DNA of 37,640 nucleotides from an uncultured Candidatus Berkelbacteria bacterium (lineage in GTDB: Bacteria; Patescibacteriota; UBA1384; CAILIB01). A model generated the notes under the pieces. The model had not been told where the DNA came from, did no database searches, and worked only from the letters and a program-made list of their open reading frames with translations. Below, one piece after another: positions 3,372-28,182 of the stretch. Location: assembly GCA_903834195.1 (NCBI GenBank), contig CAILIB010000019.1:1-37640 (forward strand), in the 5' to 3' direction. The stretch's first letter is position 1, and each line of letters begins with the position of its first letter. Both the position numbers and the translations under genes were made by a program.

Positions 3372-3649
3372 TTAAGCCCTTTCGAATCACGCCGGGCTCA
3401 CGCAGCAAAAAACCCCGTTATTACACGGTATAGGAGAACAAATTACTTGATATTGCTGTGAAAGATGTGAGCATACGTGCGGTGATGTCGGTTTCTATCT
3501 TTGATTAAATTTCCGCATGTCTTGCGACAAAGTCAGAGTAGCGGATTTGGGTATTAAATGCAATTGACCGTGGCAAAATTTTCAGGTAGAGTTGCCTGGT
3601 ATCAATAGAGAAATTGATCGAGGAATTACACATAGTATTCCTCGGGGTC

Positions 3650-3666
3650 CGATCGCTACGCGATCG
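3650..3666 (+). repeat. leader hairpin CGATCGC-TAC-GCGATCG upstream of tRNA-Pro
   Basis: perfect 7-bp inverted repeat with TAC loop. Confidence 0.7.
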
Positions 3667-3721
3667 TAGCCCTCCTCGGAATCCCACTGCGAAAGTAAGC
3701 TTTCGCGCCGGTATTCCTCGT

Positions 3722-6746: not shown

Positions 6747-6823
6747 GCGCTCATAGCTCAGCTGGATAGAGCGTCTGTCTTCGGAACAGAAGGCCGGGGG
6801 TTCGAATCCCTCTGGGCGCACCA
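6747..6823 (+). tRNA. tRNA-Arg(TCG), anchor of the cassette array
   Basis: GCGCTCA/TGGGCGC acceptor, loop CTTCGGA, TTCGAAT T-loop, encoded CCA. Confidence 0.95.
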
Positions 6824-6945
6824 AAGTTGTCAATATGCAAAAAACACCTTGTGAAAGGTGTTTTTTGGTGTTCGAACTTTTTTTACTCAGCTCGTTTAAA
6901 TCAGATTAGTGCGCTTTGAACCCTGGAGTGAGTTGAACTTTTTGC
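6818..6945 (+). repeat. cassette junction A (tRNA-Arg 3' end plus hairpin plus TTGAACTTTTT arm)
   Basis: GCACCAAAGTTGTC..AAAAAACACCTTGTGAAAGGTGTTTTTTGGTGTTCGAAC..GAGTTGAACTTTTT. Confidence 0.88.
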
Positions 6946-7015
6946 CATTAAATCAGCAGATCGACCTCTGAACTTATCAATAATTTTCAAAATAGATTCA
7001 TGATAAAATAATCCT

Positions 7016-7690
7016 ATGTTTACCTATGATCACTTTATCGAATTACATAATTGGCTCACCGAAAACTGGTCGGGCTATGTTTCAATAATTGAGGGCGGAT
7101 CAACGTCTGCGGGTGATCCCATTATTTTAGGTCGCTCTGATTGGGAGGTCGCTATCGTTGCAGATAACATTAGTGAAAAAGATAGGATTAGCCTTGCGAC
7201 ATACCTTAGATCATTTCCTCAAGATGATCGTCTAGAACTTGTCTACCGCTCAAAAGAGGAACTCTTAGGTAATTCCCAGAGTTCTCATCAATTAACTGGC
7301 AAGTTTAGAAGTAAGACCCTCTTTGGCGAAGACTTACTTGATCAAATTCCACTTCCTGACGTAAGTATTATTGAAAAAGCATGGAGATCTGGCTTGAAAA
7401 TGACAATCTATAAAATTGATAAATACACGGTAAATGCTTCAATTTGGTCTGACGAACGAATTCGCAAAGCATTTAGACAAGTTTTTAAAGATGCTTTTCT
7501 CAACCTGCAACTAAAATCCTGGTGTGACACAGAAAACTTTCCAGTCACACGTAAAGATGTAGTACTCGCATATTCTTCGCCCGAACTCGCAGATGTGTGG
7601 GATTGCTTACATGGGATAAACGATGCAAACCCAGATGTAATTCTAGAAACTGCTAAGCGGTTAAAGCTACTTCTATCCGAAATCGCATAA
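7016..7690 (+). CDS. hypothetical protein, possible nucleotidyltransferase fold
   Basis: complete ORF; GGSTSAGDPIILGRSDWEVAIV loosely recalls an NTase active-site motif. Confidence 0.7.
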   Translation: MFTYDHFIELHNWLTENWSGYVSIIEGGSTSAGDPIILGRSDWEVAIVADNISEKDRISLATYLRSFPQDDRLELVYRSKEELLGNSQSSHQLTGKFRSKTLFGEDLLDQIPLPDVSIIEKAWRSGLKMTIYKIDKYTVNASIWSDERIRKAFRQVFKDAFLNLQLKSWCDTENFPVTRKDVVLAYSSPELADVWDCLHGINDANPDVILETAKRLKLLLSEIA

Positions 7691-7911
7691 GAAGTTACGT
7701 TACGATATGAGAGGTTTGAAATTAGATCTCGCATTCCTCTTCTACCACTATCGAATCAGCTTCATTATTGCCCCTTCTGAATTGCCCAGTCTATTTCATG
7801 AAGAGTACTAGCTAGGAACCCTTAAGGAATCAATTCTGTCAAGTAATTAAAGATTATTGACACGTCTTTGATATGGGATTAGGCTTTGCCTAATCCCAAT
7901 AAGCCAATACT

Positions 7912-7955
7912 GCTTCATGGAGTGCGATCCCTTAAGGGATCGCACTCCATGAAGC
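7912..7955. repeat. 44-bp perfect palindrome
   Basis: GCTTCATGGAGTGCGATCCCTTAAGGGATCGCACTCCATGAAGC. Confidence 0.97.
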
Positions 7956-8088
7956 TAAACAATGGGATTTCTGTAGTTGTTTTTATATTACTTTTCCTAT
8001 TTACTTGTTGACAACAAGCTCATTATTGGTATATAAATAGTACTAGATAAAGGGTTACTGCGAATGCGGGGGCCCTTTTTTGTTTTAT

Positions 8089-8823
8089 CTATGGATATAT
8101 AAGAAAATCCCTAGCACTAATCTTTTCTTTTACAGTGGAATAATGAATCTCATTTCCATCTGGCTTAGGAGCTTTTCCAAGAATATGACGACCGATAGGT
8201 GTAACTATAAGGTCAGCCAATTGAAGGCCGCTTAAATTATCTTTTTTGTCCTTAAGCATGAACTCTTCTATCCGCCCAGCAACTTCTGATCCCTTGAAGA
8301 ACTTTGTGCCTGAATTTTTAGCTCGTATAAATGCAATGTCTACTTTATTATTCTCAGTATGAGTCCGTTTTTCAGGATAAATCTTGCAAGTGCGTCGTGG
8401 ACCGCAGAGAATAAGTACTTGGTTCAAAATAAAATCAAAGGTAAAGAGGTATGGGTCATTCTGACTATCTTCAGGTAGTTCGGAAACCTCGTCTTTCTTC
8501 ACCGCGGCAGAAATTATCTTTATTGACGTCCTTTTGATCAAAGAATTCATCTCACTATAAAATTCAGCTCTAAAGTCACTATTGAAAAACTTATGCGTAA
8601 GGGAATCACTCGCCTTGCCGGGACGATTAATCTCTGCGGTATGTAAGTGATATTCTCTATTTCCAAAAAGTTTTTCTTTTAGATTCTTAAGTTCTTCATC
8701 AAATTGATGATACGAAGAATCATCTTTGAAACAAACCGCAGCTAGAACAAAAGCGTTATACAGATTATCTGAGGTGCTTTGTTTGAGATTATGATCACCA
8801 GATTCGTCAATAAATACATGCAT
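8089..8823 (-). CDS. DUF3800 domain-containing protein
   Basis: MHVFIDESGDHNL N-terminus and C-terminal LQLADLIVTPIGRH are typical of DUF3800. Confidence 0.87.
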   Translation of the reverse strand: MHVFIDESGDHNLKQSTSDNLYNAFVLAAVCFKDDSSYHQFDEELKNLKEKLFGNREYHLHTAEINRPGKASDSLTHKFFNSDFRAEFYSEMNSLIKRTSIKIISAAVKKDEVSELPEDSQNDPYLFTFDFILNQVLILCGPRRTCKIYPEKRTHTENNKVDIAFIRAKNSGTKFFKGSEVAGRIEEFMLKDKKDNLSGLQLADLIVTPIGRHILGKAPKPDGNEIHYSTVKEKISARDFLIYP

Positions 8824-8878
8824 AAGATATTGTTATGAATGTAATTATACCAATATCTTCCCGACCTTTTTACTAATT

Positions 8879-9098
8879 TTACTCTTTCAAGAGCGCCTGA
8901 TTAGCATCCTCGTAACTTCTTCTAAATTGATCCAACCACTTTAAAAAGAGTTCGAATGAAAAGTCCCCAGGGGCACCAAAGTTGTCAGAATACAAAAAAC
9001 ACCTTGTGAGAGGTGTTTTTTGGTGTTCGACATTTTAATACTCAAGTTATTTAAACCAGGTTAGAATACTTGAACCCTGGAGCGAGTCGAACTTTTTG
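8879..9098 (+). repeat. cassette junction B
   Basis: AGAGTTCGAAT..CCCCAGGGGCACCAAAGTTGTC..hairpin..GGTGTTCGA..GAGTCGAACTTTTT. Confidence 0.88.
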
Positions 9099-9278
9099 TC
9101 AAAATCACTCAATCTAAAATAGGTATTAAAAATCCCCGATACGAATCCTATTTAGCCTATGTTTCAGTGATTCACACGTTATAGTGTTGTAATTCTGAAA
9201 GCCATGTCATCTATTTGCTGTAAAAAAATGGAGCCCAGCGGGCTCCAAACGGACAAGAAGGTCAGTGTAGCAAGAAGA

Positions 9279-10046
9279 TTAACTTGTTCGAGCTACGATA
9301 GTTATAATTGCATCGAGAAATTCCTCGGAACTCATATCATTGCCAATGAGGCCAGGAGCCCATTTGAAGGGTTTGTTTTCTGGGTCGCTGGTAAGCTGCT
9401 CGAACTCCTCCTCGGTCAAATAACGATCCGGACCGCTCCGCTCTTTGTCATCCACGTCGGCGAATGCCACGCTGTGTGTCTTAACGACATAGAATGTGTT
9501 GTGTGAGAGGCGGGATTTTCTCGGAGGAAGCATCTTCCAGACTTTCTCGATGAGCGGCTTACTGAGCGTAACGACAACCCTCTTTGAATCATCAGCGAAG
9601 ATTGCTGGGAAAAAGCCCATTAACCCATGCTCGAGAGAAAGAAAGTAACCTACTTGAAGCTCATAGCTCGATGGGTCGCCTTTCAGTACCTCAAAGAGGT
9701 TGAGCGGGCAGCCGTTCTCGTCAGTTCGCTGCTCCGGATTGGTACGAGATCCAATTCGTGCACGTTCTTCTGATTGCTCTACAGCGTAAAGCTCCGCTGC
9801 CTTTTCTCCTGTTACATGGCCAGACTTTGAGTGCTGGCAATTGTTACAGAGTGGAGCCCCGCAGCCGAGGCCTCCCATTTGGGCATCGCATGAGCGAGTT
9901 GCCTTTTTCTTGCATGAGACGCACATCAATTTCTCGTGCTCGTCGCACCAACCGTTGTCAGTTGGCTTGCCGCATCCGTCAGTCCAAGCTGGACGGAATT
10001 GGCAGGGTGTCGAAGGGGGTGGTTCTGGTAATTTGATACTTGCCAT
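9279..10046 (-). CDS. hypothetical protein with Cys-rich, probably zinc-binding N-terminus
   Basis: start taken at MASIKLPEPPPSTPC; CGKPTDNGWCDEHEKLMCVSCKKKATRSCDAQMGGLGCGAPLCNNCQHS. Confidence 0.72.
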   Translation of the reverse strand: MASIKLPEPPPSTPCQFRPAWTDGCGKPTDNGWCDEHEKLMCVSCKKKATRSCDAQMGGLGCGAPLCNNCQHSKSGHVTGEKAAELYAVEQSEERARIGSRTNPEQRTDENGCPLNLFEVLKGDPSSYELQVGYFLSLEHGLMGFFPAIFADDSKRVVVTLSKPLIEKVWKMLPPRKSRLSHNTFYVVKTHSVAFADVDDKERSGPDRYLTEEEFEQLTSDPENKPFKWAPGLIGNDMSSEEFLDAIITIVARTS

Positions 10047-10204
10047 GAGTTCTCCAAGGTTCAATATGCTCTTGAATAATACCTCTCGGGTACTTTTCAA
10101 AGAGTTTGTGGCTATTGTAGCAGGTTTTATCAATATTTATAGGTTAATTTGGGTAAGCCGAATTCAATACTGAATGCACCACCTTCCACCTATACACATG
10201 TCAC

Positions 10205-10440
10205 CTAGAGTTCACCTTTGTCTTCTGGTATTATCAGATTAGCTGCCTCGAGATTTCTCATGAATTGGTCAAGCCATTTGAGAAAAAGTTCGACAGGCGG
10301 CGCCCCGAGGGCACCAAAGTTGTCAAAATGCAAAAAACACCTTGTGAGAGGTGTTTTTTGGTGTTCGATATTTTAATACTCAAGTTATTTAAACCAGGTT
10401 AAGTTGGTTTACTCCCTAGAGTGAGTCGAACTTTCTCGAC
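10205..10440 (+). repeat. cassette junction C
   Basis: AAAAAGTTCGACAGGCGGCGCCCCGAGGGCACCAAAGTTGTC..hairpin..GGTGTTCGA..GTGAGTCGAACTTTCTC. Confidence 0.88.
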
Positions 10441-10506
10441 TTCGCCTAAATATATTACTGTTTCTAAATCAGCTATTATAATTTGTAAGGATACATAAAT
10501 CTAATT

Positions 10507-11439
10507 ATGCACGAATACCCAGATCCCTCTCCCTCCATAGAGCAGGAAACCAAAATCATTACTGAGGAAGAGAAATACAATGAAAGACTTCAGCAAGAGT
10601 TGCCATATTTTGTGAATCACATTAGTCAGCCTGATCCTGATTCAGATATGGCAGGAGAATGGTTGGGCGAGATCACTGAACAAGACATCGTTAACTTTGG
10701 TGATCTTTTACAAACAAGTCAGGGACGCTACTGCCATTATAGTAATGCCGTCCGATACTTTCAGATTTCAATACCAACTGAGAAGCTGAAATCTATAAAA
10801 GATTATCTCCTTTTTGACCCAAGAGCACTTCAATATTTTGGAGAAAAATGCGGATACAGCGAAGAAGAAGTACAGCATTTACTTCCATTAGCTGCAGAAA
10901 ATCAGGAGAAAGTGCATACGGCAGCCAAATCCTCTTCTCAACGAAGGATTGAAAAGCAGGAAGCAACCGATCTGCTTCGCATAGAAAAGGGTTATGACAT
11001 ATCACAGGCGGCTTTCGATTCAGCAATTGAAAAGAGTGAGTACGAAATTGCATTGCATATTGCAAATTATCCACAAGAAAACACTTACATTGACCCTAAA
11101 GATAATCTACTCAAATGGGTGAACCAGTGGTCTCCTGAAAAGATTCCTCATCTTTCTGAACTATATCGCAACCAAGTTTTAAGCGAGGTTGCAATTGCAG
11201 AGCAGTTCCCTTATTGGCATACCGGCGACAATGATAATTTTACTACAGGATTAATGCGTTCAGGAGAATATTATAAGGCTCAGCAACGCGCAGAAGCTGT
11301 TGTATCTTGGGCAGGATCTGAGCTTGCCGTTAGCCATGCCCGCTACCCCTCAGTTCCTGAGCTTTTTATTGATAAGTTTAGGGTTGCACAAGCTATTGAT
11401 TTAAAGTTTAATGAAGCACGTCTTAATAGGAATAGATAA
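10507..11439 (+). CDS. hypothetical protein
   Basis: 310-aa ORF filling unit C-D; no recognised family. Confidence 0.75.
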   Translation: MHEYPDPSPSIEQETKIITEEEKYNERLQQELPYFVNHISQPDPDSDMAGEWLGEITEQDIVNFGDLLQTSQGRYCHYSNAVRYFQISIPTEKLKSIKDYLLFDPRALQYFGEKCGYSEEEVQHLLPLAAENQEKVHTAAKSSSQRRIEKQEATDLLRIEKGYDISQAAFDSAIEKSEYEIALHIANYPQENTYIDPKDNLLKWVNQWSPEKIPHLSELYRNQVLSEVAIAEQFPYWHTGDNDNFTTGLMRSGEYYKAQQRAEAVVSWAGSELAVSHARYPSVPELFIDKFRVAQAIDLKFNEARLNRNR

Positions 11440-11461
11440 AGCCAGTTGATATTTCTGATTA

Positions 11462-11625
11462 CTAGAGTTCACCATCTTCTTCTGGTATTATCAGATTAGC
11501 TTCCTCAAGATTTCTCCTGAATTGGTCAAGCCATTTGAGAAAAAGTTCGACAGGCGGCGCCCCGAGGGCACCAAGTGTGTATAAAAGCAAAAAATCCCTT
11601 ACACGAGGGATTTTTTGGTGTTCGA
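11462..11625 (+). repeat. cassette junction D (hairpin sequence changed, structure kept)
   Basis: AAAAAGTTCGACAGGCGGCGCCCCGAGGGCACCA, then AAAAAATCCCTTACACGAGGGATTTTTTGGTGTTCGAT. Confidence 0.86.
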
Positions 11626-11643
11626 TATTATTGGCATCAGACT

Positions 11644-12411
11644 CTAAATACCTGATTTCGCTCGAGTATATTCCAACACACCTCGCTCTAGCTCCGATGC
11701 AGTGAAATGGTCAAGGCGCTCTAAAATCAATACTAATTCCATGTGCCACGCATCTGGCTTTAACAAATCGAAAAGCTCGGCGCGAACAGCATCATGATAG
11801 TGTTCGGTAACCCAACCAACTGTGTAGTCCCTAAATGTTGCAATACGGTTCTTTGCAGGAAATGAAAGTGGAGCGCCCATCTTAATCTGAGTCAGGCCAT
11901 TCTTTGTGTCTTCACTTAACCCTTCTAATCTGCCAAGAATATCTGTATAGGATGTTGGCAACTCACCATGGTCAAGAAGAAGGTTCTTCCAGATGTTCAA
12001 CAAAAATTTGTTCATCCAATACGATTCAACATCACAATAATCGCTGACTTTTGCCTTTTGAAGCTGGTCCTTTAGTTCAAACAAGACAATGTATGACCAG
12101 AAAAGTGTGTTGTGCGCATGCTCTCGAAAATCCCTAATAGGTTCAGCTGTCCTATCTGTTCGAACGGAAATAGACGGGCATGAGAGCAAAATGTCTTTGG
12201 TACATTCTTCAATTTCACCCCGCAACTGCTTTAAAACTGAAGGTGCAACCTCACCATCTGAAAGTAAATCAATATCAGAAAGTGAAAAGAACTTGTCCAC
12301 AACAGGAACGAGATGCTGTTCGTGATCCAACCAGGAGCCCCTGAACCTCAAGTCGTAACGCGTCAGTACTTTCCCTACTTTGTTAGTGAGTTTGGAGCGG
12401 ATATCAATCAT
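11644..12411 (-). CDS. hypothetical protein
   Basis: preferred start MIDIRSKLTNKVGK; divergent from the PEP-mobile-domain gene. Confidence 0.7.
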   Translation of the reverse strand: MIDIRSKLTNKVGKVLTRYDLRFRGSWLDHEQHLVPVVDKFFSLSDIDLLSDGEVAPSVLKQLRGEIEECTKDILLSCPSISVRTDRTAEPIRDFREHAHNTLFWSYIVLFELKDQLQKAKVSDYCDVESYWMNKFLLNIWKNLLLDHGELPTSYTDILGRLEGLSEDTKNGLTQIKMGAPLSFPAKNRIATFRDYTVGWVTEHYHDAVRAELFDLLKPDAWHMELVLILERLDHFTASELERGVLEYTRAKSGI

Positions 12412-12477
12412 TAACAATCTGCTAGTTTTCTGATATAATGTAACTATCAAAGGCGTAATAATGCAAGGCGGCAATTT

Positions 12478-13578
12478 ATGGAGGATGAGCAGTTAGCTAA
12501 TATTTATGCGACACAAAAATCCTTAACTGAATGGTTTAAGGAAATTGGCCACCCTGATGCCGAAGCATTGCAACGCGAAGATAGCGAAAAGAGTGATCGT
12601 CTCAGGTTATTACATGAGATCGCGGGTTTACCCTATGGCGAGCGAGTGCGGTTCGATGCGGTTGAGGTAACCAAAGATAACCCCGCCTTTGCCATGTATC
12701 TAGACGAGCATAGAAGTAAGATCTGTGGATTGCGTCTCGTTCCTAAGGAAGACAACTTGCCCAAAATTCGTACTTTAGGAAAAAGTGTCGCAGATGCCTT
12801 CTCCTGGTTTCAGGAACAGGCAGTTGATCAAAGCCGGTATTGGGTTGATTTCTTCCCTATAGAAGCAGAGGATCTTTGGGCTACCATATTCATTGTCAAT
12901 CAGTATGGAATTCATGGTGAGATAATTGCCGGAAGCCACCATCAGCTGACTCAGGGCGTTCATGATCACACACCTCTAATTGTCTTTGACTTTGACTTCA
13001 AGAATTGGCATCTTGAACCACAAAATCCAGGAGCCAAGGATCATCTACGTTCCTTGATCGAACATCTTCATATTACAGACGCCGCCGTGCGCTCAGTGCT
13101 AGAGAAGGAACTCAGCGTAACTTTTGCACAAGATTATATTGAAGGGTACTGGGAAACGACACATTCCTCAGAGGTGACGCGTTTTATTGATTACAGCCCG
13201 CGTATAGGCAAAATGTACGCCGATTTACATGTAATGACGCCCCAGAAAAACCTCAAGGCCTCTCTTCATGGCCATACAGGTGGTCCCGGCAAAGCAGATG
13301 GAACCGCTAGAATCGTCCTTCCTGAAGCGATCGCTTCTACAGATTTTAGTGAAGGAGAAATCCTCATCTGCCCAGTAACAACGCCAGACTACATTCCACT
13401 GATGCAAAAGGCCGCCGCGATTGTGGCTGAGGGTGGTGGTATTCTTTCACACGCAGTCATCATTGCTCGCGAAATGAAAAAACCCTGCATAGTTGGGGTT
13501 TCCGGTGCTATTACTACGCTTAAGAACGGGCAGTTTGTTAGCGTCGATGCCGATTCTGGAACGCTAACCCTAGACTGA
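12478..13578 (+). CDS. protein with C-terminal PEP-utilising enzyme mobile domain
   Basis: GTARIVLPEAIASTDFSEGEILICPVTTPDYIPLMQKAAAIVAEGGGILSHAVIIAREMKKPCIVGVSGAITTLKNGQFVSVDADSGTL with swivelling-domain GGxLSHAxIxARE motif. Confidence 0.9.
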   Translation: MEDEQLANIYATQKSLTEWFKEIGHPDAEALQREDSEKSDRLRLLHEIAGLPYGERVRFDAVEVTKDNPAFAMYLDEHRSKICGLRLVPKEDNLPKIRTLGKSVADAFSWFQEQAVDQSRYWVDFFPIEAEDLWATIFIVNQYGIHGEIIAGSHHQLTQGVHDHTPLIVFDFDFKNWHLEPQNPGAKDHLRSLIEHLHITDAAVRSVLEKELSVTFAQDYIEGYWETTHSSEVTRFIDYSPRIGKMYADLHVMTPQKNLKASLHGHTGGPGKADGTARIVLPEAIASTDFSEGEILICPVTTPDYIPLMQKAAAIVAEGGGILSHAVIIAREMKKPCIVGVSGAITTLKNGQFVSVDADSGTLTLD

Positions 13579-13600
13579 GATAGATAGAGCTATAAACTAC

Positions 13601-13832
13601 CTAGAGTTCGCCCTCCAAATCTGGTAATATTGAATTTGCCTCATCATATCCTTTCATCAATTGCTTATACCACTTGATTAAGAGTTCGAAGGTATGTGCA
13701 CCAGGGGCACCAAAGTTGTCAACATACAAAAAATACCTTGTGAGAGGTATTTTTTGGTGTTCGATATTTATTTTGCTGTGGTATTTAAATCAGGTTTGGA
13801 TGCTTTGAACCCTAAGGTGTGTCGAACTTTTT
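13601..13832 (+). repeat. cassette junction E
   Basis: AGAGTTCGAAG..CACCAGGGGCACCAAAGTTGTC..AAAAAATACCTTGTGAGAGGTATTTTTTGGTGTTCGAT..TGTCGAACTTTTT. Confidence 0.88.
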
Positions 13833-13936
13833 AGATACATATTACATATATAAAACCTTCTATCTCATTGACTTTTCTCTCGTTTTTCCCTATTCTGGCA
13901 GCCAGCATACGCAATACAGGTACGAGGTAAAAACCA

Positions 13937-14737
13937 ATGCTAACGTTCCAAGATCTAGATACACGTGGCCTTGCAAAGAAAGGCCTACAAAGCTACAACC
14001 GATCCCAATTGCCAAAAGGCGTGAGTGTCATTTCACTCCCACCAATTGCTATTAGGCTCCCCGGCGAAAACGTCGACTCTGAGCTCATGCTCAAGATTCG
14101 CCTTAACAAAACGACTATTGAGCGAATGTGGGTTTTCACTCACTTCGACCAATCTTTCTTCCCAAGCGCCGACTTCAGTACTGTTATCCTGGCTGCAATC
14201 AATGGCCTTTCGGTCATACAGCAGTTTGGTGTTCTAACGGTTAATCTTCTTCCCGATATCCAGTACAAAGCTGGATGGAGAGAGCCCGATGGAGGTACGC
14301 CAACATCAATCGATGTCTGGGCGGTAACTGATGAAGAGGCAGCCGATATGGCTACCGATTACATCATCAATACCTATGAAGGGTTGCGCAGCCGATGCGG
14401 TAACCCCTACATCGTCAGAGTCAACGAGCAAAGGAATCCGATTGCCCCGCAGAAGACGCTCAGCGTCAACGCTCGGCCATCACTAAGGAATCCAAGCAAG
14501 TACACGCTTACGTACGAGGAGCTCAACAAGCCAGAAGGCATCAGCCAACCATTCACTACAACGGAAGGCCCCATTGCCGCAACGCTTATGGCGGCTCAAT
14601 ACCTGGTCGATAAGTACGGCCCTGGTATAACCGGCGCGGTTTACATGGCCGTCGATCCCATTCTTCGTGACGACAATGACGAGATTGTCGCCATCTGCTT
14701 CCCGTTCAACGAAACTAAACACCCCGCTGGCGTCTAG
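13937..14737 (+). CDS. hypothetical protein
   Basis: 266-aa ORF filling unit E-F; upstream ACGAGGT; no recognised family. Confidence 0.75.
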   Translation: MLTFQDLDTRGLAKKGLQSYNRSQLPKGVSVISLPPIAIRLPGENVDSELMLKIRLNKTTIERMWVFTHFDQSFFPSADFSTVILAAINGLSVIQQFGVLTVNLLPDIQYKAGWREPDGGTPTSIDVWAVTDEEAADMATDYIINTYEGLRSRCGNPYIVRVNEQRNPIAPQKTLSVNARPSLRNPSKYTLTYEELNKPEGISQPFTTTEGPIAATLMAAQYLVDKYGPGITGAVYMAVDPILRDDNDEIVAICFPFNETKHPAGV

Positions 14738-14818
14738 CGCCAGTATTCCACCACGAGCTTTCGAATGACTGTTCGTGGGGAAATCAGAGGCATTAACCAT
14801 TTAATATTTCTGACTTCT

Positions 14819-15008
14819 AGAGTTCACTATCTTCTTATGGTAATATCAGATTAGCAGCCTCGAGATTTCTCCTGAATTGGTCTAGCCATTTGAGAAAAAG
14901 TTCGACGGGCGGCGCCCCGAGGGCACCATACACAATACTCCTATTTCATTCCTTGTCCTCCCGAAAATAGTACGGATGCGGGGGAATGAAATAGGAGTAT
15001 TGTGTATG
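14819..15008 (+). repeat. cassette junction F with 26-bp inverted repeat in place of the usual hairpin
   Basis: AAAAAGTTCGACGGGCGGCGCCCCGAGGGCACC, then CATACACAATACTCCTATTTCATTCC (14927-14952) / GGAATGAAATAGGAGTATTGTGTATG (14983-15008). Confidence 0.88.
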
Positions 15009-15135
15009 TTCAGAATGAGGATTCGAGTACCTTGTCCAAACTTGGTGCGCCGCAGGCTATAATCGAATCCCTACAAAAAATCTATCGCTCAAAAATATGA
15101 AGGATTTCAGTGTACAAAATTCAATATGAAACTAA

Positions 15136-15681
15136 CTATTTGACCTCATGTAACTTAGAAATATCCCCAACCCAATCAACTCGCTCAGGCAATTCAATCT
15201 TTCCATACAGTGCGTGTGGTGCATTAACTCTTAGTGCCCACCCATTATCTCCGTACGACCAATGCCACCACTCATCCACATAACTTGTAAGGCCCGTAGG
15301 CTCTAGGATTTTCCACAGCAAAGCCCGGTTAGCAATTGCCTCATCACTGAGACCTTCAACTGAAACAGACGCAGATTGCCAATCAATTCTAGAAAATGGA
15401 GATGTAAAATCGAGACTCTTTCCGTCAGTATCAACAATATCTAAATCTACAGCACCACCTGTAAGATGTGGCGGCGGTGTAATTGCATCAGGTGGTGCAC
15501 TTCTCTTACCAGCTTCGATTTCAATCTCTTTATCGCTCATTTCAGGAAACTCTTTCTTTACACGGTCAAGAGTATAGGCATGCATAGCCCGCTGCACCGA
15601 GATTGGACGATAGCCTTCTATAACACTTAGAAATAAACCTTCAGGGAGTGCTTCAGCGGCCTGGACAAGCATATTAGCCAC
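15136..15681 (-). CDS. D-alanyl-D-alanine dipeptidase (VanX-like); N-terminus uncertain
   Basis: EGYRPISVQRAMH, PPPHLTGGAVDLDIVD, DEWWHWSYGD; the frame stays open upstream to about 15845. Confidence 0.85.
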   Translation of the reverse strand: MANMLVQAAEALPEGLFLSVIEGYRPISVQRAMHAYTLDRVKKEFPEMSDKEIEIEAGKRSAPPDAITPPPHLTGGAVDLDIVDTDGKSLDFTSPFSRIDWQSASVSVEGLSDEAIANRALLWKILEPTGLTSYVDEWWHWSYGDNGWALRVNAPHALYGKIELPERVDWVGDISKLHEVK

Positions 15682-16003
15682 CGATTGGCGGACAATGTGT
15701 GTCCGTGGAAAATCAAATACAGGATGCGCTGGTGAAACAATAAGTTTTGGAGATAACCCTAGAAAATCTATAAGGGGCTCACCAGTATCTTTAATTATTA
15801 CCTTATCGAGTTCATCCTGATCCTCACCTGGAGAATTTATTTGTGCTCATATTTTTACTAGGTTTACGTAACACAAGAATAGCAAATCAAAAACAACTCA
15901 TATAGATAATTAAAAAATCCACCACTTCAAATTGTGCGTTAAAGTTATAAACATATAAAAAAGAAGAGGATCACACGGATCCCCCTCAAATACAAATCTT
16001 TTC

Positions 16004-16642
16004 TCAAGATCTTAGAACCTGCTTTTCCAACTCCTCAAGGTCCAACATGAACTCTCTTAGCCTGCCCGGCTCTATGGGCTGCTTAGAGTCGAAGTCTTTA
16101 ACCATACGTTTTAACTGGACTGAGAGTCGAATTAACTCATTCTTTGAGGCCTTATTGCCAAAACCAGACAAATAAATCTGTAATAGCTTTTTCAAACTCA
16201 GAAGAAGTGCTGCTGCACACGTCCCCTGCTGAAGTTCTTCACGCGGCATCGTTCGTAACGACTCTATTGTGCGTTCAGTCCACAAACGAACTGCACGTTT
16301 TTGGTAGTAAAACCGACAAAAGTGCCAGATTGTGAAACAGAACCCATAGAAACCTACTATGCAGGCCACTATGTAGAACCACATGAACTCCCTAAGGTGT
16401 GGAGTGGTCGGGTGATGCAAGGTGCGGTCGTAGATGAGCATGAGGCCAACAAAACCAAAAACGAGCCCACCAAGCAGGTACATACCAGCTCCATCAAGAG
16501 TATCGTCGTTCATTTTGTGAACCTTCTTTCGGTCTGCGGTGAAGTGAACAATGATGCCAACCAGAAGGCAGAATAGCGTGCTATAGAACAGCACCCATTC
16601 AAAGTCGTAAAAATTCCTGTAATGATCCTCGTACATTTTCAA
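16004..16642 (-). CDS. hypothetical membrane protein
   Basis: several hydrophobic segments followed by a soluble C-terminus. Confidence 0.7.
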   Translation of the reverse strand: MKMYEDHYRNFYDFEWVLFYSTLFCLLVGIIVHFTADRKKVHKMNDDTLDGAGMYLLGGLVFGFVGLMLIYDRTLHHPTTPHLREFMWFYIVACIVGFYGFCFTIWHFCRFYYQKRAVRLWTERTIESLRTMPREELQQGTCAAALLLSLKKLLQIYLSGFGNKASKNELIRLSVQLKRMVKDFDSKQPIEPGRLREFMLDLEELEKQVLRS

Positions 16643-16769
16643 CTCTCCTCGAATCTGGGAGCACTATACCATTTTTATATAAGATTAGCAATGTACTAGG
16701 ATGTTTTGAATTTAGTTTATTGAACACAACACCCCAACCTGGTAATAATAACCAGGAGGTACATGAATC

Positions 16770-17189
16770 TTGAACACACAACTTGAAAATCCGACAAAAA
16801 ATGGTGTTCCTGATTCAGGACCACCCACTATCCCTCCAATTGAGGAATCCGCATACAATCCCTGGAACTTGCCCCATTGCCACTTCTGCAGAAAAGAGGA
16901 CGGAGACCTCGGTAGTGGACTTCTCTCTTTACATCCTCCAACACGTGAGTTTTGTCACTTTTCGTGCTACAAGGACCACATGCACTACAGAATTGGTGGC
17001 AAATTTTACTCAAAATTCACAGATATAGCACTAATATCTTCTGCCGGTGCATTTCTCACGAGTAATACTCCTTTAGGAATACCACTATTTGGAATGTGTA
17101 TTGCTTTGCTTATTGTCCTTTTTCTAGTAAGCACCATCAACCTTTGTTATTATCTCTGGAAATACATTCCGGAGGATAAACTCAACTAG
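16770..17189 (+). CDS. hypothetical membrane protein with Cys/His N-terminal motif (TTG start)
   Basis: HCHFCRKEDGD..FCHFSCYKDH then two TMs; AGGAGG at 16753. Confidence 0.6.
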   Translation: MNTQLENPTKNGVPDSGPPTIPPIEESAYNPWNLPHCHFCRKEDGDLGSGLLSLHPPTREFCHFSCYKDHMHYRIGGKFYSKFTDIALISSAGAFLTSNTPLGIPLFGMCIALLIVLFLVSTINLCYYLWKYIPEDKLN

Positions 17190-17198
17190 TTGAATCCC

Positions 17199-17241
17199 GT
17201 CCACCTTCAGCAATCATGCAGAAGGTGGTCTTTGTTTATAG
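17199..17241 (+). terminator. intrinsic terminator
   Basis: CCACCTTC..GAAGGTGG followed by a T-rich tract. Confidence 0.65.
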
Positions 17242-17289
17242 TAACCACCTACCAATCTGCTAAACTATACACAGACACTAAAAAATACC

Positions 17290-18663
17290 ATGTCAAAAAG
17301 ATCAAACCCTTGGCTCCTCCTTTTTACCGTACTATTCGGTATTCTTCTGGTCGGGATAGATCGCACAGTCACAAATCTTGCAATTCCTCACATCATCGCC
17401 CAATTCAATATTGATGCTTCTACGGCAGGATGGGCAGCAACCTCGTACATTATTACGAGCGCCGTATTTATCCCAGTTTTTGGAAAACTGGGTGACATGT
17501 ATGGCGACCGACGGATTTTCGTTGGGGGTATGATAGGCTTCATAATCACCTCAATTGTGACTGCACTAGCCTGGAACATGCCTATTTTAATTGCATTTCG
17601 CGCACTTCAGGGAGTGTGTGGTTCGGCAATTGTACCAACTGCCATGGCTGCAGTTGCAAAACAGTTCACTGAGAATTCCTCACGCGCGCAGGCTCTTGGT
17701 TTTTTGGCTACTGCTGGAGCCGGTGCCGCAACTGTTGCCCCACTTGTAGGAGGTCCACTAATCGACAATTACGGTTGGAGAAGCGTCTTTTTTATCAACT
17801 TACCTCTCGGTATTATCGCCGTAATACTTGGTATTCTCTATATCCGCAATGATCGCGTCGAAGCCAAACACTCCTTCGATATCATTGGCTCTATCCTATT
17901 AGGCCTCTCATTATCTGGTCTTGTACTTGTAATCGATCGAGGAAGTGCCTGGGGATGGACCTCACTGGGCTCAATTATTTGCTACATAGGCAGCGTCTGC
18001 TTTTTTGCCTTATTCGTCTATGAACAAGGCCGCGCTGCCGATCCTATTATTGATCTTACGCTGTTCAAAAATACGACAACCAGCGGCGCACTAGCGACCT
18101 CCTTCTTTGTTGGCATGTCGCTATACAGCGTAACCCTATTGATCTCACTTTTTGCACAGCAAAAACTCGGCTATACAGCTACTCAAACTGGGTACCTCTA
18201 CCTACCGATGACCATTCCGCTCATTTTTCTCTCACCCGTAGGAGCTAAAATCTCCAAATTACTTCCGCCGCGCTTTGCCATTGCAATTGGGGTACTTGGA
18301 GCTGCTGGGGGAATTTATCTGCTTTCACGTGCCGATATCTCACTCGGATTACGCGCTGTCGCATTTCCAATGGCCGTATTCGGTGCCTTCTGGGCAATTA
18401 CCTCAGCACCATTGAGTACTGCCATTGCGAACAGTGTGCCAAAAACCCACCTCGGTATGGTTTCTGGGTTACGCACTCTTGTACTTAGTATTGGTGGCGC
18501 CATCGGAATTGCTGTTGCAAGTAGTGTCTATGCAAGCAATGCAGCAGCTGGAGTTTCTTCTGAAACTACCTTCCACCAATTGTACGGAATATCAGCAATT
18601 GTACTCGTAATCGGTGCAGGGCTTGCACTCTTTATTAAAGAAAAGTCGAGCGATTACGCCTAA
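17290..18663 (+). CDS. MFS transporter, EmrB/QacA (DHA2)-like
   Basis: GIDRTVTNLAIPHIIAQF..WAATSYIITSAVFIPVFGKLGDMYGDRRIF. Confidence 0.92.
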   Translation: MSKRSNPWLLLFTVLFGILLVGIDRTVTNLAIPHIIAQFNIDASTAGWAATSYIITSAVFIPVFGKLGDMYGDRRIFVGGMIGFIITSIVTALAWNMPILIAFRALQGVCGSAIVPTAMAAVAKQFTENSSRAQALGFLATAGAGAATVAPLVGGPLIDNYGWRSVFFINLPLGIIAVILGILYIRNDRVEAKHSFDIIGSILLGLSLSGLVLVIDRGSAWGWTSLGSIICYIGSVCFFALFVYEQGRAADPIIDLTLFKNTTTSGALATSFFVGMSLYSVTLLISLFAQQKLGYTATQTGYLYLPMTIPLIFLSPVGAKISKLLPPRFAIAIGVLGAAGGIYLLSRADISLGLRAVAFPMAVFGAFWAITSAPLSTAIANSVPKTHLGMVSGLRTLVLSIGGAIGIAVASSVYASNAAAGVSSETTFHQLYGISAIVLVIGAGLALFIKEKSSDYA

Positions 18664-18671
18664 ATAAGATA

Positions 18672-20138
18672 CTAGGCGCTGTACACGCTAGAACTCGTCG
18701 TACCGCCAGTACCCGTCCAGTTAGTATGGAAAAACTCGCCGCGAGCTTTATCGGTGCGCTCATACGTATGGGCTCCAAAATAATCGCGCTGTGCCTGAAG
18801 TAAGTTAGCTGGAAGTTCAGCACTGCGGAAGCCATCATAAAATGAAAGAGCCGAACTAAAGGCTGGAACCGGAATGCCAGCCTTTACTGCAGTAGCAATT
18901 ACCGTACGCCAAGCATCTTGAGCCTCTGTCAGTACTTTAGTGAAGAATGGATCAAGCATCAGGTTCATTAGAGCTGGATCTGCATCAAATGCTTCCTTAA
19001 TTTTACTTAGGAAGCGACTTCGGATAATGCAGCCACCGCGCCACATCAGTGCAATACCGCCGTAGTTAAGTTCCCAACCATATTCTTCGGCAGCAGCTCG
19101 CATCAACATATAGCCCTGTGTATAACTTACCATTTTGGACGCATAGAGTGCCTGTCGAACCTGTTCGATAAACTGCGCTTTATCACCAGTAAATGTTAAT
19201 CGTGGACCATTCAGAACACCTGCAGCACGTACTCGCTGATCTTTAAAGGCTGAAATACAACGCGCGTAGACAGCTTCACTGATCAATGTTACTGGCTGGC
19301 CTAGTTCTGCGGAGCTAATTACTGTCCACTTTCCAGTCCCTTTTTGACCCGCCACATCGAGAATCTTATCAACCAATGGCGCACCGTCAGCGTCCTTGTA
19401 GGCAAGAATTTCGGCGGTAATTTCAATCAGGTAACTATCAAGTTCACCCTTATTCCACTCAGCAAAAACAGTAGCCATTTCATCAGCAGATAATCCAAGG
19501 TACGTTTTGAGCAGACTATACGCTTCACCAATTAGCTGCATATCTCCGTACTCAATGCCGTTGTGAACCATTTTCACATAGTGACCAGCACCACCCTGAC
19601 CTACCCATTCACAACACGGAGTTCCGTCTTCAACTTTGGCTGCAATACTCTGGAAAATTTCCTTCACAGCTGGCCATGCTGCAGGCGAACCACCTGGCAT
19701 AATAGAAGGACCACGTCGGGCACCTTCTTCACCACCGGAAACTCCAGATCCAACATACAGCAATCCTTTGGATGCCAGATATTTTTCTCGACGATCAGTA
19801 TCTGCAAAAAGTGTATTTCCCCCGTCGATAATAATATCTCCAGCTTCCAGATGGGGAATCAATTCCTCAATTGCATCATCTACAGGCTTTCCAGCCTTAA
19901 TCATAAGCATGACACGTCGAGGACTTTTCAATGTTCCTACCAATTCTTCAATGGAGTGCGTACCAATTACCTGCGTACCCTTTGCTTCGTTCTCCAGGAA
20001 ATCATCAACTTTGCTTACAGTTCGATTAAACACAGCCACAGTGTAGCCATGATCATTCATGTTGAGTACTAAATTCTGACCCATTACAGCCAGTCCAATG
20101 AGTCCAATATCTGCTTGAGGTGTGGTTTCTGTATTCAT
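18672..20138 (-). CDS. gnd: 6-phosphogluconate dehydrogenase, decarboxylating
   Basis: IGLIGLAVMGQNLVLNMNDHGYTVAVFNRT; GSGVSGGEEGARRGPSIMPGG; KMVHNGIEYGDMQLIGEAY. Confidence 0.97.
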   Translation of the reverse strand: MNTETTPQADIGLIGLAVMGQNLVLNMNDHGYTVAVFNRTVSKVDDFLENEAKGTQVIGTHSIEELVGTLKSPRRVMLMIKAGKPVDDAIEELIPHLEAGDIIIDGGNTLFADTDRREKYLASKGLLYVGSGVSGGEEGARRGPSIMPGGSPAAWPAVKEIFQSIAAKVEDGTPCCEWVGQGGAGHYVKMVHNGIEYGDMQLIGEAYSLLKTYLGLSADEMATVFAEWNKGELDSYLIEITAEILAYKDADGAPLVDKILDVAGQKGTGKWTVISSAELGQPVTLISEAVYARCISAFKDQRVRAAGVLNGPRLTFTGDKAQFIEQVRQALYASKMVSYTQGYMLMRAAAEEYGWELNYGGIALMWRGGCIIRSRFLSKIKEAFDADPALMNLMLDPFFTKVLTEAQDAWRTVIATAVKAGIPVPAFSSALSFYDGFRSAELPANLLQAQRDYFGAHTYERTDKARGEFFHTNWTGTGGTTSSSVYSA

Positions 20139-20155
20139 ATGCTCACTATACCGAA

Positions 20156-20461
20156 TCAGAGCATGAAAGTGTACCTCGGATTTTTCGCGTCAGCAAGCAT
20201 CTCTCGAATTTCGTCAGAAACTCGCTTGTCTCGCTCATCAAAATACTGTGCTACGTTTTCAAGTTTCTTCTGCTGAACTTTGGTCAGCTTCTGATAGGTA
20301 TCCTTTTTCACAACCTCCCGATCGGCATTAGCAAGCTCAGCGAGAACCTTGAGTAATTCTTGCTTCTTTTCCTCTGGAGTCAGGCTAGGAGAGAGCGATT
20401 TCAACTTCCGATTCAGTACGGTTCTGTAGCGTTCGGTTAAGTACTTCGCCTGTGTTGTCAT
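20156..20461 (-). CDS. hypothetical protein
   Basis: MTTQAKYLTERY start preceded by GGAG; overlaps the upstream gene out of frame. Confidence 0.65.
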   Translation of the reverse strand: MTTQAKYLTERYRTVLNRKLKSLSPSLTPEEKKQELLKVLAELANADREVVKKDTYQKLTKVQQKKLENVAQYFDERDKRVSDEIREMLADAKNPRYTFML

Positions 20462-21866
20462 AATATTCTCCGTCAACATTAGGTTGTGAGATTGTTATTC
20501 GTAATTCTGGTTTTCCATCAGTTCCTCGTACAGTCTCCATAGTCATCTCTGTACCTGGCCGGATTTCACCCTCCTGTTCGTCAAATTGTCCTTCTTGCCA
20601 AGCTTTGTTTGTACCATCTACTTCTATTCCGTGTATCTCGACTTCGCAAATTGCAAACTCAGTCCCTATTTCAGTTTTTACCTCATTTCTGAAAGCAGGT
20701 AAGTCACCTTGGTTTTTTACTAGGATTTCAGCGATTTTCATTTTTGTGTACTGTTCTTGGAGTGCAACCTCCAAGGCTTTCGGATGATCGGTATCTCCGC
20801 TATACATGAACTCTGCGCCTGAATCATCATCTTTGTGGTTCTCTAGTCTACCCTCTCCGGCTTTTATGTATGCCACAAGCAGTCGAGCAAACTCTTGTGT
20901 ATGTTGGGTAAATTGTTCACCTGGAGTTGCATTTGATTCAACTTTTGCCGAAATGTTCCATTGCTCTTGCTGTTCTATAGTAGGTTCTGGTTTTTCAACC
21001 TGCTGTTCTGCAACTTCTACCGCAACCGCTTGCTCTGGCTTAGGATCTTCTATTTTGAGCATTCGTGCAACTTCAGTTTTCAGTGCAGTTTGATTTTCTG
21101 GAGCTAATTTCTCAAGGCTTATTCCTACTTTTTCAAGTTTTGCTTCAATGTGGAGCTCCACCTGCTCTTCTTCGTGAACCTCGATTTTTGCAGTTTCTTG
21201 TTGTGCTATTTCTGGTGATTCAACTATGTGCGTTTCAGTTTCAAGAGCTACCTCTGGTTCATCGTGCACTTCAATTTCTGCCAAGCCAACCATTCCATCT
21301 ATTTCAGATTCAACTACTCCTACAGCTTCAGTTTGATCGTCCAAAAAAACCTCATGTTTAGCAATGAGGTCATCTTCTAGCGCTGTTAATTCTGCAGTAT
21401 TTTCTTCGAGTACTATTTTTTCTGGAGTTTCAGGTTCAGTAGCAATTCTATTCTCAATAGTGCCATGAGGATCAAATCCAACCTCATGTACCATCTTTCG
21501 AGTCGGAATAAACTGCTCTTGAGGTTTTTCAAGCGGGCTTAGTTTTTCGAGTACCGAAGGTTCTTCTGCAGTCTGTATGGCCTCAGTTACAATTTCTGTT
21601 TCAGGTTCGGCTTGAGATTCTATTGTAGGCAGAATTACTTCCGACTCTGGCTGAGTATACTGTCTGTTGAATTCAGCAAGGTCTGCATCAAGTGTTCCAT
21701 CTCGCTCTGGGAGTGCATCGTACACTTCGTCCGGTAGACCTTCGCCTATATTGAGCTGCTTAAGATCCAGATTCTCAGCCTCGAAAGATGGCTGTTGGAT
21801 TTTGGTTTCTACAGATGCTCCTGTAATTTCAGCTGAAGTGCTTGGATTTTCGAGTGTTTCTTGCAT
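20385..21866 (-). CDS. hypothetical acidic Glu/Val/Thr-rich protein
   Basis: 493-aa ORF with low-complexity acidic repeats, e.g. EIEVHDEPEVALETETHIVESPE. Confidence 0.75.
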   Translation of the reverse strand: MQETLENPSTSAEITGASVETKIQQPSFEAENLDLKQLNIGEGLPDEVYDALPERDGTLDADLAEFNRQYTQPESEVILPTIESQAEPETEIVTEAIQTAEEPSVLEKLSPLEKPQEQFIPTRKMVHEVGFDPHGTIENRIATEPETPEKIVLEENTAELTALEDDLIAKHEVFLDDQTEAVGVVESEIDGMVGLAEIEVHDEPEVALETETHIVESPEIAQQETAKIEVHEEEQVELHIEAKLEKVGISLEKLAPENQTALKTEVARMLKIEDPKPEQAVAVEVAEQQVEKPEPTIEQQEQWNISAKVESNATPGEQFTQHTQEFARLLVAYIKAGEGRLENHKDDDSGAEFMYSGDTDHPKALEVALQEQYTKMKIAEILVKNQGDLPAFRNEVKTEIGTEFAICEVEIHGIEVDGTNKAWQEGQFDEQEGEIRPGTEMTMETVRGTDGKPELRITISQPNVDGEYYDNTGEVLNRTLQNRTESEVEIALS

Positions 21867-21943
21867 GTATGTTGTTACGCGATGCTCAAATCGCTGTTAC
21901 AGTAGCAGGTTTTCCTATTTTTGTCTAGTAGCTATAATCTCAC

Positions 21944-23113
21944 TCAAAAAATGGCTTTTTTCGAATGTTTAAACGATCCGCGTAGCAAAAATACTGTTGG
22001 TATTATTAAAATTTGAAACAAGAGAAGTGCGTGTGCCGCTGAAAATCGGTCTGCTAGAAGACCTATTACAATAGCCATTATACCGTAGAATACACTTCCG
22101 AGGAGAGAATTTAATGACCCCATTGTTGCACGATGCTCGCTACTAAATTCTTCTTGAAAAATTTTTGCCTCAGCAACTTGGTACGGTCCAAAAAGTGCAC
22201 CACTGAGGACAACTAGAATTGGAGAAACTACACTAGGAAACGCAAAGGCAAGAATATTCACTACTCTATCAACCCAAAAGTCGACAAAGAGTGTTCGTGC
22301 CTCGCCAAGTTTTTTCACAATTCGATCACCAAATACAAAACTAAAATAGACGATCAATTTATTAAATGCATTAACAATACCGAGGAGCCAACTTGGAATT
22401 ACAGTTGCGTAAAATGCAGGTAAGAAAGAGTATGAACTTTCCCCTAAACCTCCTGATATAATCGAGAAAAGACTAAACAGGCGCAAGCGTTTATTCGTGA
22501 TAAACAAGCGAGTTGCTTCACGTAAATGCGCGAATGGATTCTCAACCGTTACACCATGCGTCCGAGTATTTGGAATGAATACACTAATAATGAGACCAAC
22601 CAAAAACGGTAACACGCTAAGCCATGCTAAAAGCGTAAATGAATACTGAAGGAGAAAACCACCGAGTACGGCCGAAACCCCCATTGAAATTTGTACCCAA
22701 GAATTCATCTTTCCATATACGTGGCCATACGATTCTTTTTCCCCTGATTGTTCCATGACCTCGTATAATAATGCGTCATTATTTCCACTGTATAATGCCT
22801 GGCACAACCCCATTAATGTCGCACCTATAAGCAGTGATGCATATCCCAGCCCTGTAGCGTAAGAAATTGCTCCGAGTAAGGCAGCTACTGTACCTGCAAC
22901 CAACACTCGTTGTCGGCCCCATAGGTCGGAGAGAATTCCTGTTGGAAGCTCGAATAGTGATGAACTGATTAATAGTACTGTATATACACTTCCTGCAAGT
23001 GCGTAACTTCCGCTTACATGCGCAAAGAAAAGTACTACTACTGGTCCCATTGGGACGAATGTAATTGCACTATTGAACCAGGTAATTAACTTGACTGTTC
23101 GGGTATGCGACAT
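21944..23113 (-). CDS. MFS transporter
   Basis: SSSLFELPTGILSDLWGRQRVLVAGTVAALLGAISYATG. Confidence 0.88.
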   Translation of the reverse strand: MSHTRTVKLITWFNSAITFVPMGPVVVLFFAHVSGSYALAGSVYTVLLISSSLFELPTGILSDLWGRQRVLVAGTVAALLGAISYATGLGYASLLIGATLMGLCQALYSGNNDALLYEVMEQSGEKESYGHVYGKMNSWVQISMGVSAVLGGFLLQYSFTLLAWLSVLPFLVGLIISVFIPNTRTHGVTVENPFAHLREATRLFITNKRLRLFSLFSIISGGLGESSYSFLPAFYATVIPSWLLGIVNAFNKLIVYFSFVFGDRIVKKLGEARTLFVDFWVDRVVNILAFAFPSVVSPILVVLSGALFGPYQVAEAKIFQEEFSSEHRATMGSLNSLLGSVFYGIMAIVIGLLADRFSAAHALLLFQILIIPTVFLLRGSFKHSKKAIF

Positions 23114-23273
23114 ATGTTTACTATATCGTTTTTTGACTGATTTTAATTTATTAACTGGCTCTAAAAGGCAAAATCTGTTATTATTTCGTCTGTTCTACCA
23201 ATTTCTTCGATATCAATTCCTCGTTCGCTCACATTCGGACAAGCTAGCTTGTCTAAGTACACCTGTTCGTCCC

Positions 23274-23319
23274 CGATATCTACGATATCGTGTACACTCG
23301 TCCGATATCTACGATATCG
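23274..23319 (+). repeat. two tandem copies of CGATATC-TAC-GATATCG upstream of tRNA-Arg(TCT)
   Basis: hairpins at 23274-23290 and 23303-23319, each preceded by a CGTCC tRNA-5'-end-like sequence. Confidence 0.85.
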
Positions 23320-23376
23320 ATTCCTCGTTCGCTCAACAAAAATGTAAGCTAGCTTCCATTTTTGTCTCACTCACTC

Positions 23377-23453
23377 GTCCCGATAGCTCAGATGGATAGA
23401 GCGGAAGCCTTCTAAGCTTCAGGTCGCTGGTTCAATTCCAGCTCGGGACACCA
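23377..23453 (+). tRNA. tRNA-Arg(TCT)
   Basis: GTCCCGA/TCGGGAC acceptor, loop CTTCTAA, encoded CCA. Confidence 0.95.
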
Positions 23454-26210: not shown

Positions 26211-26285
26211 GGTGCCATCATCTATCGGTTAGGATACCTCCCTTTCACGGAGGAAAGAGGGGTTCGACTCCCCTTGGCACTACCA
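26211..26285 (+). tRNA. tRNA-Glu(TTC), attachment site of an integrative element
   Basis: loop CTTTCAC, GGGGTTCGACTCCCC T-arm, encoded CCA. Confidence 0.94.
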
Positions 26286-27811: not shown

Positions 27812-27813
27812 AG

Positions 27814-28170
27814 TTATTCTCCCTTCACTACTTGGGTTAATGTTTGGTTATTAAAGATACTGCGCTCGAACGCATCCATCCAGCGCTCAATAAGATACTG
27901 AAATTCTGTGATCTTTACCTCAAGGTCTTGATCTGAGAGGTTCATAACCGAAGATCCAAGAATTCTTCTCGCCTGCGTAAGCCGTGTTTCTTCCTGTTGC
28001 CCTTGAAAGAAAGATGACAGCCCATGCTCTAGCGCCTTTGTTCTCTCTGGCGAAAAACCTTGCAGAACTTGCTTACTAACTAAAGGAGAATACTCCATCT
28101 TTTCTCTACTTAATGGAGATGGCGACATTTTCCTTTCTGCTTCGAGTTCTAGTAATAGTTGGGGGCTCAT
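27814..28170 (-). CDS. hypothetical protein upstream of the recombinase
   Basis: ORF ends 2 nt before the recombinase start; probably same operon. Confidence 0.65.
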   Translation of the reverse strand: MSPQLLLELEAERKMSPSPLSREKMEYSPLVSKQVLQGFSPERTKALEHGLSSFFQGQQEETRLTQARRILGSSVMNLSDQDLEVKITEFQYLIERWMDAFERSIFNNQTLTQVVKGE

Positions 28171-28182
28171 AGTATATTATGC

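Follow-up and report, generated by a model that had tools for sequence, protein, structure and literature searches.

Staphylococcal cassette chromosome (SCC) elements stand in tandem at the 3′ end of one gene, recombinase-less elements included. The bacterial tyrosine integrase of phage Mx8 (intP/intX) reportedly has its attachment site (attP) inside its own gene, and its C-terminus is said to be altered by integration. The Dehalococcoides ssrA islands (DsiB) are described, in the passages that deal with them, as tandem islands downstream of a structural-RNA gene, delimited by short copies of the 3′ end of that gene; the edge next to the RNA gene holds a CcrB-like serine recombinase, and islands lacking an integration module, which also occur, were suggested to be possibly cis-mobilizable (PMC3146451). 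In archaea, attP lies inside the gene of SSV-type tyrosine integrases, which is split by integration at a tRNA; for excision, such suicidal integrases may require an intact relative of the enzyme, and a 2021 review considers self-disrupting recombinases exclusive to archaea (PMC8371274). In mycobacteriophage BPs, according to a passage on its integration, attP is also inside a gene, and integration changes the C-terminus of the repressor (PMC4557955). Here we analyze an array of small gene cassettes behind the tRNA-Arg(TCG) gene of an uncultured Candidatus Berkelbacteria bacterium. It lies on contig C19 of the source genome (1.13 Mb in 46 contigs, 75.65% complete), the 37,640 nucleotides of which are referred to as the window. 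The array is very probably a tandem of non-autonomous elements that resemble cis-mobilizable elements (CIMEs) and are flanked by attachment arms belonging to a large serine recombinase (LSR) with tRNA CCA ends as its insertion sites.

Five units of 1.2–2.2 kb follow tRNA-Arg(TCG), each with one or two unrelated genes. A preliminary description had noted that the tRNA end is repeated at five internal sites, which is confirmed by the positions of GGGCACCA (8971–8978, 10309–10316, 11566–11573, 13705–13712 and 14921–14928). Comparison of the sequences likewise showed AAGTTGTC after the tRNA and after copies B, C and E. The spacings of 2155, 1338 and 1216 bp were retained, whereas those of 1258 and 2138 bp are now 1257 and 2139 bp. 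The shared junction proved to be longer than first described: junctions B–F have about 105 bp in common left of GGGCACCA, and A, B, C and E have about 120 bp in common right of the core. In the window these form a five-member repeat family of 168 nt (67–88% identity to the reference copy) and a four-member one of 124 nt (72–82% identity). The features of the array are as follows, with P and P′ denoting the left and right attachment arms.

6747–6823, plus strand: tRNA-Arg(TCG), anchor of the array, with encoded CCA; attB arm B (ARAGORN, Rfam)
6824–6943, plus strand: P′ joined to the tRNA, with AAGTTGTC, the hairpin AAAAAACACC..GGTGTTTTTT, GGTGTTCGA and a distal inverted TTGAAC
6824–8978, strand not assigned: cassette 1, 2155 bp, two genes (repeat boundaries)
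7016–7690, plus strand: cassette 1, 224-aa protein of no family (Pfam)
8089–8823, minus strand: cassette 1, DUF3800 protein (Pfam)
8879–8983, minus strand: junction B, P, recombinase C-terminal tail ..DNFGAPGDFSFELFLKWLDQFRRSYEDANQALLKE-stop (translation)
8979–9097, plus strand: junction B, P′ (repeat comparison)
8979–10316: cassette 2, 1338 bp, Cys-rich 255-aa protein of no Pfam family at 9279–10046, minus strand
10205–10321, minus strand: junction C, P, tail GALGAPPVELFLKWLDQFMRNLEAANLIIPEDKGEL-stop (translation)
10317–10436, plus strand: junction C, P′ (repeat comparison)
10317–11573: cassette 3, 1257 bp, 310-aa protein of no family at 10507–11439, plus strand
11462–11578, minus strand: junction D, P, intact tail ..ELFLKWLDQFRRNLEEANLIIPEEDGEL-stop (translation)
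11574–11629, plus strand: junction D, diverged right arm retaining GGTGTTCGA (direct sequence reading)
11574–13712, strand not assigned: cassette 4, 2139 bp, two genes (repeat boundaries)
11644–12411, minus strand: cassette 4, 255-aa protein of no family (Pfam)
12478–13578, plus strand: cassette 4, 366-aa protein with phosphoenolpyruvate (PEP)-utilising mobile domain (domain search)
13601–13717, minus strand: junction E, P, tail ..FELLIKWYKQLMKGYDEANSILPDLEGEL-stop (translation)
13713–13832, plus strand: junction E, P′ (repeat comparison)
13713–14928: cassette 5, 1216 bp, 266-aa protein of no family at 13937–14737, plus strand
14817–14930, minus strand: junction F, P, tail with in-frame TAA, distal end of the array
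14929–15008, plus strand: region past the last junction, mostly a 26-bp inverted repeat, with no P′ motif; presumably the original flank of the tRNA (B′)

The junction repeat is specific to the array. Searching the source genome with a 211-bp junction query matched the six array copies alone, and GGGCACCAAAGTTGTC with up to two mismatches occurs four times genome-wide, every time inside the array. Together with six window matches of TTTGAGAAAAAGTTCGA against 0.38 expected, this is far beyond chance and does not fit a genome-wide terminator, the alternative named earlier. A consensus terminator scan was overall not above chance, though it listed the hairpin of junction D; in Rfam only the tRNAs matched, and the junction corresponds to no known RNA family. 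The hairpin varies in pairs, with CACC/GGTG in A–C replaced by TACC/GGTA in E and TCCC/GGGA in D. The distal part of the cassette right arms features an inverted motif of the TTGAAC/TCGAAC type, and the arm adjoining the tRNA contains a GAGTCGAACTTTTT-like site at 6930–6943.

Minus-strand translation showed that the left arms of B–F all encode a common, conserved C-terminus, such as DNFGAPGDFSFELFLKWLDQFRRSYEDANQALLKE-stop; read antisense, the arm is FGG-LDALSFEHLLAWLDQLRQ-stop. Similarity between the units stops at the stop codon of this tail. The five arms of the window differ at codon positions 1, 2 and 3 in 44, 43 and 92 cases, and the pooled codon-position test, with one frame-shifted cassette included, gave p=0.03. 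Four of the five tails are open, and that of copy F is interrupted by an in-frame TAA. The preliminary description had noticed a T-loop-like GTTCGA in each copy and read it as T-arm mimicry. The motif is indeed present, its start being a constant 29 nt from the CCA end in B–F compared with 24 nt in the tRNA. Since the left arm is minus-strand coding sequence for the LSR 3′ end, the copies resemble a T-arm only in GTTCGA and in the acceptor/CCA end; the spacing, the missing T-stem and the coding arm led us to reject mimicry as an explanation of the repeat.

The tail is linked to LSRs. The tail profile matched in 15 of the 55 class genomes compared and in 20 of 381 genomes sampled from the phylum. 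The LSR domain PF07508 occurs in 29 of the 55 class genomes: in 14 of the 15 with a tail and 15 of the 40 without (Fisher p=0.00018). Many class LSRs lie head-on against tRNA 3′ ends and read into the tRNA antisense. Five elements have the LSR at one end, its 3′ end overlapping the tRNA where one is called, and the tail at the opposite end, 5–24 kb away (G017, tRNA-Pro; G033, tRNA-Ser; G024, tRNA-Leu; G025, tRNA-Glu; and G024:C3, which has no called tRNA). In all five, the LSR frame passes at the TTTGG core into that of the tail, as in ..FRAILDLQSNPVSFGG + LDALPFEHLLAWLDQLRQAFEENESPDYSI-stop. A profile of the joined C-terminus matches integrated copies as two separate halves, and one natural open reading frame (ORF) runs across the core in G055:C2 (L190), reading ..GYSNQQISPLYQYISHFGDDNVSFGD-PNALSFEPLLSWIQKLM.. 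These joins, the L190 ORF and the split matches place attP within the recombinase coding sequence.

In a tree of 39 LSRs, the tail-linked enzymes form one clade of 22 with support of 100/99. All its members with a called tRNA overlap that tRNA, and the frame at the core is identical in 16 of these 19. Of the three exceptions, two (L123, L213) adjoin a tRNA end whose sequence lacks TGG, which displaces the reference base. The odd annotated C-termini of these LSRs, such as GIRTLE, GSRTHD and GNRTPV, arise because these residues come from the tRNA antisense. L213 (1313–2968) is on an IMG/VR viral contig, where this clade LSR overlaps tRNA-Phe in the integrated form; viruses may thus use the same recombinase. 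The source genome also encodes an LSR that reads into the 3′ end of an apparent tmRNA (ssrA) gene (G000:C38, L136 5830–7443); it has a long branch and lies outside the clade. A second LSR group (L097, L101, L104, L107, L114) stops about 140–365 bp before a convergent tRNA without overlap.

Three features recur in the right arms of LSR elements and cassettes alike: an AAnGnnnCA-like motif on the inner side, GGTGTTCGA and, distally, an inverted TCGAAC. The P′ region of cassettes often contains a hairpin. The P arm with GTTCGA at the fixed position −29 is likewise common to both. The shared arms indicate that the window cassettes are LSR-less elements. In our model, attP of autonomous relatives lies inside the LSR gene, 25–35 codons before the stop, so that in the excised circle the enzyme would end in ..FGG-LDALSFEHLLAWLDQLRQ. 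On integration, the LSR body would stay at the tRNA, whose antisense strand would encode its new last residues; the native tail codons would be moved to the far end of the element. The P arm of a window cassette consists of these LSR tail codons, and its P′ arm has the LSR-proximal motifs (AAGTTGTC, GGTGTTCGA, distal TCGAAC), with a terminator-like hairpin replacing the LSR gene. Circles inserted beside the CCA by an LSR working in trans would build tRNA-P′-cargo-P-P′-cargo-P and so on. The tRNA reads GGGCGCACCA, every copy reads GGGCACCA, and F diverges directly after CACCA. GGGC thus belongs to the element, and the model puts the crossover at or within CACCA. It also predicts tRNA-CACCA-TACACAATACTCC as the empty site, and an LSR serving tRNA-Arg(TCG) would be expected to have a tail matching ELFLKWLDQFRRNLEEANLIIPE.

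Insertion at tRNA-Arg(TCG) is lineage-specific. In G038, G051, G052, G050, G025, G014, G002 and G003, tRNA-Arg(TCT) follows 5–530 bp behind tRNA-Arg(TCG); the same interval measures 16.5 kb here, 8.1 kb of which is the array. The site is therefore empty in many relatives that have the same tRNA order, and none of the outcomes named in the preliminary description as refuting its reading, such as identical array content and order in all relatives, was encountered. Together with the arrays at other tRNAs, this bears out the earlier proposal that small cassettes were inserted repeatedly and site-specifically at the 3′ end of a tRNA. The remaining 8.4 kb, from the array end to tRNA-Arg(TCT) (14929–23377), include a VanX/M15-like peptidase and an EmrB-type major facilitator superfamily transporter; as the tRNAs are adjacent in relatives, this part may likewise be acquired. 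The VanX-like gene, named in the preliminary description as possible cargo, lies outside the array.

Tandem tails are also found beside tRNA-Ser(CGA) on contig C15 of the source genome and on G033:C15, and beside tRNA-Leu (G190:C4), tRNA-Asp (G178:C9) and tRNA-Arg(TCG) (G178:C7); G043:C39 has three tails on a contig without a tRNA. The tail never stands behind a long open frame (172 aa at most), and its codons mostly begin at the antisense of a tRNA-like CCA end (TTTGGCGGA, TTTGGTGCC, TTTGGTAGC). GTTCGA starts 29 nt from the core in the copies aligned there; in G033, one cassette has a frameshift. Two tails of G178:C7 enclose a unit of 160 bp (L142, about 3557–3717) that contains no listed ORF of at least 80 aa and is possibly an empty cassette. 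Cargo of the other arrays includes AbiEii, two Fic proteins, RloB with an AAA ATPase, two AAA_14/DUF4143 proteins, and radical SAM, HD and GH15 proteins. A conserved-stretch scan on A3 gave no stretch usable for scanning, and searches of viral_contigs with the tail and the window LSR, and of plasmids and phages with the joined C-terminus, led nowhere.

Domain searches found no recombinase encoded in 6824–14928. The units carry neither integrase nor transfer genes, and each internal junction has P and P′ arms, as in CIMEs. Domain search and inspection also upheld that the array contains neither an integrase nor a GTTRRRY core; with no IntI either, integron attC was rejected as the junction, whose core is CACCA. 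For the cargo, the nucleotidyltransferase-like label given to one gene has no support in Pfam, NCBIfam or PADLOC, and neither the cargo in the window nor the first genes downstream of it had a PADLOC match. A perfect 44-nt palindrome lies at 7912–7955, between the two genes of cassette 1.

The preliminary description had looked for the recombinase elsewhere. None is indeed in the array and the junction matches the attachment arms of the clade, but a clade LSR lies in the same window, at a second occupied site.

26211–26285, plus strand: tRNA-Glu(TTC), second occupied site (ARAGORN)
26222–27811, minus strand: LSR, 3′ end running into tRNA-Glu antisense (domain search, tree)

This LSR belongs to the tail-linked clade and has PF00239 (5.7e-31), PF07508 (8.2e-11) and a weak Zn ribbon. 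Among NCBIfam models it matches CcrB (1.4e-22) and CcrA (2.4e-16) below the curated cut-offs. With 80 bits for CcrB against a cut-off of 900, and a tRNA instead of rlmH as target, it is not an SCC recombinase. It is a candidate source of recombinase activity for the array. It heads an element resembling an integrative and conjugative element at tRNA-Glu(TTC) (26222–37640), which also encodes DUF4411/PIN, M78 and M23 peptidases, PrgI, Fic, a TraG/VirB4-like ATPase and a type IV secretion system pilin; its far end is past the contig.

Several points weigh against cassettes mobilized by an LSR in trans. Among the genomes compared, each of a different species, no circle, no excision at read level and no cassette exchange at strain level was seen. 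No LSR was found at tRNA-Arg(TCG) in the 75.65%-complete genome, the observed LSR being at tRNA-Glu. The position of GGTGTTCGA in P′ varies (about +46, +58 and +80–90), which is unusual for a compact serine-recombinase attP, and the clade frame counts are not phylogenetically independent. In G038:C39 the LSR runs into the core in a different frame from the tail. There the LSR (L042/L015) adjoins the tail, and frameshift, sequencing error or another lineage are candidate explanations. The stop in tail F and the frame-shifted G033 cassette suggest that some copies may be dead. The array could be a fossil island of ancient LSR elements whose recombinases were deleted and which are now immobile, without mobilization in trans. 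The broken tail F, the diverged P′ of D and the lack of an LSR found at tRNA-Arg in the genome speak for such an island, which we consider a genuine possibility, though short of probable. It is opposed by the four open tails, by the retained P′ motifs and hairpin with its paired changes, by the recurrence of small cassettes in several families, including the gene-less G178:C7 unit, and by the frequency of LSR genes in the class.

A tyrosine recombinase, either XerC/D-like or a lost phage integrase, might have built the array by ordinary tRNA-targeted accretion, as such integrases usually target tRNA 3′ ends and the core is flanked by arm-like repeats. We regard this as highly improbable: the only PF00589 gene found in the source genome is, by inspection, a stand-alone XerC/D-like gene with no tRNA in the 15 kb around it, the left arm continues the reading frame of serine recombinases, and the identity block between tRNA and copies, at about 8 bp, is short for tyrosine integrases. 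Tandem duplication and divergence of the region downstream of the tRNA, with no insertion, would account for the 72–82% identity of the P′ arms of A, B, C and E, but can practically be dismissed given the unrelated cargo, the last junction with P but no P′, the tRNAs side by side in relatives and like structures with other cargo at other tRNAs.

Non-autonomous LSR-bounded elements would provide Patescibacteria, with their reduced genomes, with a route to gather accessory genes at tRNAs, such as AbiEii, Fic, RloB and DUF4143-type ATPases. The enzyme itself would be a bacterial, serine-recombinase case of a self-split recombinase, a type held to be confined to archaea in 2021 (PMC8371274). As the tail of 25–35 residues would be exclusive to the circular form, a possible role as a directionality switch is directly testable. 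We tentatively suggest, as a speculation that may well not hold, that Patescibacteria including Berkelbacteria possess an LSR counterpart of the integron, in which small cassettes are gathered at tRNA CCA ends by an LSR with attP in its own gene, the change that integration makes to the C-terminal helix of the enzyme switches between the integrated and circular states, and the cassette arms are spare copies of this helix.

How does this compare with known systems? The Dehalococcoides islands are described at tmRNA only, with integration in the T-loop and multi-gene islands of about 12 kbp, and attP inside the recombinase gene does not appear in the described passages (PMC3146451); here, in contrast, many tRNAs are used, with integration at CCA, cassettes of 1.2–2.2 kb and a proposed C-terminal swap. 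Unlike in the archaeal systems, a bacterial serine recombinase would lose 25–35 C-terminal residues and keep its catalytic domain. SCC elements use related recombinases (CcrA/B/C), but their target is rlmH and they are much larger. Integron arrays resemble the present one in their tandem, small, mostly single-gene units with a common site and an enzyme from elsewhere, whereas here there is no IntI and no attC GTTRRRY core, the LSR attachment arms are double-stranded, and the cargo lies on either strand. Mx8, with a tyrosine integrase, and BPs, with a repressor, form no cassette arrays. A limited search of the open-licence literature found nothing on such a serine recombinase design or on Patescibacteria arrays. 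Tandem CIMEs, the Dehalococcoides ssrA islands and SCC are thus known, and the one-gene cassettes at many tRNAs and the self-splitting serine recombinase are new.

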